Part shown: in pieces, positions 25,966 to 58,243 of the stretch | Numbering within the stretch: position 1 is the stretch's first letter | How the letters are laid out: each line of letters begins with the position of its first letter | Origin: Oceanipulchritudo coccoides | GTDB taxonomy: Bacteria > Verrucomicrobiota > Verrucomicrobiia > Opitutales > Oceanipulchritudinaceae | Length of the DNA: 64,000 nt | Assembly (NCBI RefSeq): GCF_010500615.1 | Contig: NZ_JAAGNX010000002.1 | Span: forward strand, 920,990 to 984,989 | Direction of reading: 5' to 3' | Notes under the pieces: generated by a model | What the model saw: the letters and a program-made list of their open reading frames with translations, nothing else | What the model was told of the DNA's origin: nothing | Database searches by the model: none | Made by a program: the position numbers and the translations under genes

Positions 25966-26475
25966 ATGAAACATATTAAATCAATTCTTCTCATTTGCAG
26001 TTTAATCTCAGCACCTGTGCTCGTCCAAGCCCACTGTGGTGCTTGCTGTGCGGGTCACGAAAAGCATGGCAAGGATATTGTCGAAACCGCAGTTGCCGCA
26101 GGCAGCTTCAATACTTTGGCCGCTGCGCTTCAAGCTGCTGGTCTTGTTGACACCTTGAAAGGCGAAGGCCCTTTTACGGTTTTCGCCCCAACCGACGAGG
26201 CATTTGCCAAGTTGCCGGCTGGTACGGTCGAAGATTTGTTGAAGCCTGAAAACAAGGATAAGCTCGTTGCGGTCCTGACATACCATGTTGTCGCCGGTAA
26301 GGTGAAGGCAAAGGATGTTGTCGAATTGACTTCAGCAACTTCCGTACAAGGTAGCGACATCGATATCAAGGTCATGGGTGGTAGTGTCTATGTGGACAAC
26401 GCCAAGGTCATCAAGACTGACATTAAGGCATCCAATGGGGTCATTCACGTGATCGATTCCGTGATTCTTCCCTAA
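25966..26475 (+). CDS. Exported fasciclin-domain protein with N-terminal HCGACC tag
   Basis: A 169-residue exported protein with a Sec signal peptide (residues 1-22, ending VLVQA). The predicted mature N-terminus is [15 protein letters not shown], rich in Cys and His. One fasciclin (FAS1) domain follows (about residues 36-169): [47 protein letters not shown] and [13 protein letters not shown] are its standard motifs. FAS1 domains mediate adhesion or ligand binding. The Cys/His tag recurs almost exactly in the 97-residue protein at 57825, suggesting a shared metal-binding or redox function for the tag (inference). A strong terminator follows, and the 206-base upstream gap is shared with divergent guaB, so it is monocistronic. 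Confidence 0.92.
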
Positions 26476-57824: not shown

Positions 57825-58118
57825 ATGAAAAAGTTCCTTCTTATTACTGTTCTCGGATTATTCTTTGCCGCTGGTAGCGCTTTCGCTCACTGTGGCGCCT
57901 GTGGTGCTGGCGATGCCGCCCATGCTGACAAAGCCGACAAGGCTGCTTGCAAGGCTGAGTGTGCCAAGGAGTGCTGTGGCAAGGAAAAGGCCAAGTGCGA
58001 GTCAGAATGCAAAAAGTCCTGCTGTGCCAAGGAAAAGGCTGAAAAAGCAGCTGACGACACTGCCGCTACCAAAGCCGGTGCTTGCTGTGCAGCCAAGAAG
58101 GCTGCCAAGCCTGCTTGA
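57825..58118 (+). CDS. Small exported Cys/Lys-rich protein with HCGACG tag
   Basis: A 97-residue protein with a Sec signal peptide (residues 1-21, ending AGSAFA). The predicted mature form starts HCGACGAGDAAHADK and has 12 Cys in 76 residues, with many Lys, Glu and Ala. A 16-residue tandem repeat is visible: ECAKECCGKEKAKCES followed by ECKKSCCAKEKAEKAA. The CC pairs and Lys/Glu spacing suggest metal binding or a disulfide-rich structure; a metallothionein-like or copper-chelating role is possible but not shown. No family I recognise. Its first eight mature residues match the fasciclin protein at 25966 in seven positions. A strong terminator follows, so it is monocistronic. Confidence 0.85.
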   Translation: MKKFLLITVLGLFFAAGSAFAHCGACGAGDAAHADKADKAACKAECAKECCGKEKAKCESECKKSCCAKEKAEKAADDTAATKAGACCAAKKAAKPA

Positions 58119-58148
58119 GGCCTGGTTTAGCGCTTACATTATTTACCG

Positions 58149-58182
58149 ACCGGTTTCGCCTTGTGCGAAGCCGGTTTTTTTT
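58149..58182 (+). terminator. Rho-independent terminator after the Cys-rich protein gene
   Basis: Stem ACCGGTTTCGC with GCGAAGCCGGT (one G-T wobble), then eight T (58175-58182). Confidence 0.85.
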
Positions 58183-58243
58183 ATGGGCAAATTCTTCCAT
58201 TCCCTGCTTTTCAGGGCTGGTGTCGCCTGTATAAACTAGGCTC

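Follow-up and report, generated by a model that had tools for sequence, protein, structure and literature searches.

An exported, cysteine-rich miniprotein family of Opitutales, defined by its mature N-terminus and possibly acting as a thiol-based metal buffer

We found that the open reading frame (ORF) at 57825-58118, on the forward strand of the stretch of Oceanipulchritudo coccoides DNA analysed here (64,000 nucleotides, hereafter the window), is a real gene for an exported, Cys-rich miniprotein of 97 residues, and that the family to which this miniprotein belongs is genuine and has no entry in the libraries we searched. The family is defined by [H/G]CGxCG at the start of the mature chain and not by the internal 16-residue repeat that the original prediction had put forward; the repeat is present in the window protein, yet the repeat region turns over fast, whereas the N-terminus is constant across relatives. 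We judge the chances somewhat better than even (a probability of about 0.55) that the miniprotein acts outside the cytoplasm as a thiol-based metal buffer, a sponge that takes up soft ions, for instance Cu(I), Zn or Cd.

Architecture of the miniprotein and its gene

The gene runs from an ATG at 57825 to a TGA at 58116-58118, and its product consists of a signal sequence, MKKFLLITVLGLFFAAGSAFA, followed by a mature part, HCGACGAGDAAHADKADKAACKAECAKECCGKEKAKCESECKKSCCAKEKAEKAADDTAATKAGACCAAKKAAKPA. The Sec-type signal peptide (residues 1-21, MKK...AFA; 57825-57887, forward strand) has a hydrophobic core with a mean Kyte-Doolittle value of 2.85 over 8 residues, and by the AxA rule it would be cleaved directly before the first mature residue; the junction of AxA with [H/G]CG is found in most relatives too. 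With the cut placed after A21 (AFA), the mature part is 76 residues long and includes 12 Cys (16%), at positions 23, 26, 42, 46, 50, 51, 58, 62, 66, 67, 87 and 88, which bears out the original description of an exported Cys-rich miniprotein. Cys accounts for 12.4% of the complete ORF, the highest content among window ORFs of at least 50 residues (the runner-up reaches 7.8%).

The mature chain opens with HCGACG (57888-57905, forward strand), which the alignments identify as the constant family motif, and its C-terminal region carries a vicinal Cys pair (residues 87-88; 58083-58088, forward strand) that most aligned relatives have in common. Between the two lie the repeat units CKAECAKECCGKEKAK (residues 42-57; 57948-57995, forward strand) and CESECKKSCCAKEKAE (residues 58-73; 57996-58043, forward strand), two copies of C-x3-C-x3-CC with a period of exactly 16 residues. 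This is a better description of the unit than the C-x3-CC pairs first proposed, of which the two copies stand. Self-matching of the protein peaks at an offset of 16 (12 matches; offsets 8-29 compared), and the repeat is clear at the protein level and barely so at the DNA level. Two C-x3-C-x3-CC sites arose in 0.038% of 200,000 composition-preserving shuffles of the mature part, a figure that is indicative only, the pattern having been chosen post hoc.

The mature part is built solely from A, K, C, E, G, D, H, S, T and P. As I, L, V, M, F, W and Y are all absent from it, it cannot fold around a hydrophobic core; judged by composition, such a chain must be either disordered, or ordered by metal or disulfides. 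AlphaFold2 run without an alignment returned helices only (4-16, 31-49 and 55-93), with the block-mean pLDDT of the repeat region reaching at most 79, and the run with nine aligned sequences was worse (mean pLDDT 47). Both models are of low confidence and we claim no fold from them.

An intrinsic-terminator-like hairpin with a T-run follows on the 3' side of the gene (58148-58183, forward strand; 12-pair stem). The terminator scan after the gene found 1 site against 0.9 expected by chance, and a hairpin with a T-run, read by eye, also lies 3' of the gene occupying this slot in three congeners. Rfam placed no RNA in the region of the miniprotein gene.

Relatives, synteny and the constant part of the family

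We count the ORF as a gene because it has relatives, because its position is syntenic, and because a group of its relatives is under purifying selection. Among 17 genomes of the family searched, G007 (E 4.7e-9) and G006 (E 1.9e-8), two of the three congeners, proved to have orthologs. The gene is preceded by valS in the window and in both of these congeners, and an amidohydrolase-like gene comes next downstream in the window and in G006. The remaining congener, G005, has in this slot an ORF whose N-terminus resembles a signal peptide and which contains 9 Cys and repeats rich in Lys and Ala (MTKRLLSAVAIL...GCCPGAAKTEAK...); its sequence is too divergent for a homology call by itself. This ORF (L010, 926-1360, reverse strand), with its AKMAKAGSSC repeats, may represent either a replacement or extreme divergence. 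In the 13 other genomes of the family, valS was not followed by an ORF of this kind, although a few of these loci stop near valS. The neighbours across genomes comprise valS and genes of amidohydrolase-like, MFS-type transporter, dus (tRNA-dihydrouridine synthase-like), hisG-like and response-regulator-like type; an obvious metal gene beside the miniprotein gene was found in none of the genomes examined.

A contig scan with the window protein alone recovered zero relatives, whereas an alignment of relatives from family f11 did recover them. The order-level profile, built from the three orthologs (window, G006 and G007), reached 11 more genomes of the same order, all of family f11, at E-values from 5e-10 to 8e-4; named records carrying relatives include Puniceicoccaceae, Opitutaceae and Opitutae MAGs. 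Six of the relatives (L027, L031 and L034-L037) adjoin dus, which gives the gene a second stable genomic location. The protein of one of these, L036, is 100% identical to that of L096 (JANQXM010000069.1). Two candidates were set aside: a paralog-like match in the organism's own genome (L002; E 0.2, with an internal stop), and L005 in genome G011, which a single sequence detected at E 4.8e-4 and the order-level profile did not recover.

A close group of f11 relatives (L099-L105) has a pooled pN/pS of 0.22, with third codon positions accounting for 508 of 830 differences; in this group, therefore, the protein and not the DNA alone is under purifying selection. A broader profile gave further matches at class level, among them short proteins that share the N-terminus and have few Cys in the tail. 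Three of the class-level sequences (L051, L053 and L054) keep an HCGxC N-terminus with few or no tail Cys, and the Cys-rich tail is thus not retained in all lineages. We treat these distant relatives as leads only, because their E-values owe much to composition and to the signal peptide.

Throughout the alignments, the constant elements are a signal peptide, [H/G]CGxCG directly after it and, in most cases, CC or C at the C-terminus. The motif itself tolerates some change: G006 has CDTC and lacks the His, and Gly takes the place of His at the mature start of L035, L042 and L044. The tails differ far more. The layout of 2+4+4+2 Cys seen in the window protein recurs in L036/L096, which has two CAEGCEKACCTK units, and C-x3-C-x3-CC units occur also in G006 and, in another family, in L034/L036; those of G006 number three, one of them minus a Cys. 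Elsewhere the tail consists of near-identical KAECSKD-type heptads, with a period other than the 16 residues of the window protein (L098, 3001-3300, forward strand), or is rich in Ser and Asp (L099-L105). Aromatic residues number 3 in 1641 mature residues (22 relatives and look-alikes). With its signal peptide, [H/G]CGxCG start, tail of Cys, Lys and acidic residues and near lack of hydrophobic residues, the miniprotein fits this family.

Similar N-termini on other proteins

The window encodes a second protein with a comparable start, a FAS1 (fasciclin, PF02469) protein at 25966-26475 (forward strand) in which a signal peptide is followed by a mature HCGACC, close to that of the miniprotein. 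In relatives of this fasciclin protein the N-terminus reads AGSCGSCG or AGSCSSCG, or is Cys-free. The FAS1 protein of one relative, L128 (1474-2316, reverse strand), bears Cys/Lys/Asp repeats (AKKDCS...) between a signal peptide and FAS1, like the tails of the miniproteins. Other AHCGxC matches in the organism's own genome, beyond the FAS1 protein and the miniprotein, included no signal-peptide protein.

Across the phylum, AHCGxCG was preceded by a signal peptide in only 4 of the 30 loci read (L061, L077, L078 and L086). Most of the matches look like chance and were discarded, the signal peptide missing from 26 of the 30. In distant parts of the phylum, a signal peptide and AHCGxCG stand before a rhodanese domain (L061, 1432-1959, forward strand) and before DUF2059 (L086, 1438-2100, forward strand); L077 and L078 continue from the same start into short Cys-rich tails. 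The HCGxCG N-termini found on different domains may reflect either one module or convergence.

Proposed function and alternative readings

Searches of Pfam, NCBIfam and PDB sequences with the miniprotein and its relatives returned nothing significant, in keeping with the original prediction that no known family would be recognised. In particular, the metallothionein match that had been named as its refutation was not found: neither the window protein (E<=10) nor any of 13 relatives (E<=1) matched the metallothionein models (PF02069 and NCBIfam). A profile of the 13 relatives likewise had no match at E<=1 among PDB chains, the solved Csp structures included. The weak hit of an NCBIfam model for a Cu/Zn efflux transporter (E 0.51) was put down to chance or composition. 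A literature search, in a library lacking most subscription journals, found no account of such a family.

The miniprotein is comparable, in the way it might work and not by descent, with bacterial metallothioneins of the SmtA/PF02069 and MymT types, which like it are small, Cys-rich and practically devoid of aromatic and hydrophobic residues. Unlike them it has a signal peptide, its Cys are spaced as C-x3-C-x3-CC and CC, and CxC is absent. In Csp proteins, Cys recur four apart along a helix, a possible parallel to the miniprotein. Csp1 is likewise exported and Cys-rich, and the miniprotein might share its capacity for Cu(I); however, Csp1 leaves by the Tat route as an already folded four-helix bundle and takes 13 Cu(I) per monomer (PMC7558416), and the composition of the miniprotein, without hydrophobic residues, does not seem to suit a bundle of this kind. 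A closer model of action may be SilE, a periplasmic silver 'molecular sponge' that is disordered without metal and folds upon binding six Ag+ (PMC5008109). Without claiming a sequence relation, we note that both are small and exported, use short repeated motifs and are probably disordered when metal-free; yet SilE relies on His/Met motifs and belongs to a resistance operon, whereas the miniprotein relies on Cys and is encoded by a stand-alone gene. Motifs of the SilE/PcoE type were not found in the mature miniprotein, which has 2 His and zero Met. We favour a metallothionein-like composition combined with a SilE-like mode of action as the best reading.

Under this proposal, the signal peptidase cut after AFA would free the His-Cys-Gly-x-Cys-Gly N-terminus to serve as one cluster of ligands. 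Further thiolate clusters would come from the C-x3-C-x3-CC units, rich in Lys, Glu and Ala, possibly on short helices formed upon loading, and the C-terminal CC would contribute another pair of ligands. Gain or loss of repeats could tune metal capacity, which would account for the variation in tail length, repeat period and Cys number alongside a constant motif and composition. The metal-buffer reading is weakened by neighbours without an obvious metal gene, by the low-confidence structural model, by the Cys-poor tails of L051, L053 and L054 and by the possible enzymatic oxidation of thiols beyond the inner membrane. Metal-type P-ATPases are present; they point to no particular metal because every score lies under the curated cut-off for Cu-ATPases.

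A different fate of the exported Cys, cross-linking within or between molecules, would make the miniprotein a disulfide-rich structural or surface peptide and part of a rigid or polymeric envelope component. Export, the many Cys and their even number (12) in the window protein would suit this role, the Lys/Ala-rich repeats resemble those of some structural proteins, and the Cys/Lys/Asp repeats of L128 precede a fasciclin domain, which is often adhesive. We nonetheless regard it as unlikely: the number of Cys is odd in 12 of the 22 listed sequences and their spacing varies among aligned relatives, whereas fixed disulfide frameworks usually need conservation. In addition, the search for DsbA-family proteins (PF01323), which was positive in 8 of 14 genomes as a control, found none in five genomes, the window's own (G000) and those of four relatives (G007, G121, G078 and G026); thiols beyond the inner membrane may still be oxidised by VKOR or other enzymes. 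Odd Cys counts in relatives, the absence of hydrophobic residues and the lack of a DsbA homolog in the search together favour metal or thiol chemistry over fixed disulfides.

Thiol chemistry could also serve an extracytoplasmic redox, persulfide or electrophile buffer, in which HCGxCG and CC cycle between dithiol and disulfide or persulfide and guard against oxidants or sulfur species. CGxCG and CC are possible redox dithiols, and the rhodanese (sulfur-transferase) domain of L061 bears a similar exported N-terminus. Neither a thioredoxin fold nor a partner reductase adjoining the gene was found, however, and expansion and loss of repeats fit a capacity buffer more than a catalyst, so this reading appears rather improbable.

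Bufferins, which carry a Sec signal and have a role in copper handling, include Buf2 proteins with 6 or 12 conserved Cys, and some precursor genes stand alone (PMC12452194). The miniprotein has a Sec signal peptide and 12 Cys, the agreement with Buf2 being one of count alone, and could by this token be the precursor of a RiPP whose Cys an MNIO converts into copper-binding heterocycles. Such an origin is very improbable because an MNIO gene (PF05114) was found in none of 22 genomes, that is, 0 of 4 in the genus and 0 of 18 others with relatives or look-alikes (the control search was positive in 2 of 14 genomes); DUF2282, which marks Buf1, was likewise unmatched in Pfam. To a chance, low-complexity or mis-called ORF with no selected function we give next to no credence: the Ala/Lys low-complexity composition, the fast divergence of the tail and the lack of a sigma-70-like promoter match in the scan of the gene would fit it, but syntenic relatives in the genus and profile matches in several genera speak against it, and the pN/pS and third-position excess in L099-L105 contradict it for the family.

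Returning to the metal-buffer reading, we tentatively propose, as a possibility that we hold with considerable doubt, that the miniproteins form an undescribed Verrucomicrobiota family of exported, SilE-like thiol metal sponges in which the HCGxCG made by cleavage serves as a common module, for ligand binding or for targeting, and Cys repeats come and go to set capacity, the same module also fronting fasciclin, rhodanese and DUF2059 domains. Metallothioneins are typically cytosolic, thiols being prone to oxidation outside the cytosol. A selected family of exported, Cys-rich peptides with almost no hydrophobic residues, in genomes that gave no DsbA, would suggest that some Gram-negative lineages hold free-thiol metal buffers in the envelope. 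The family is also a set of proteins that lends itself readily to testing and that current family libraries have missed.
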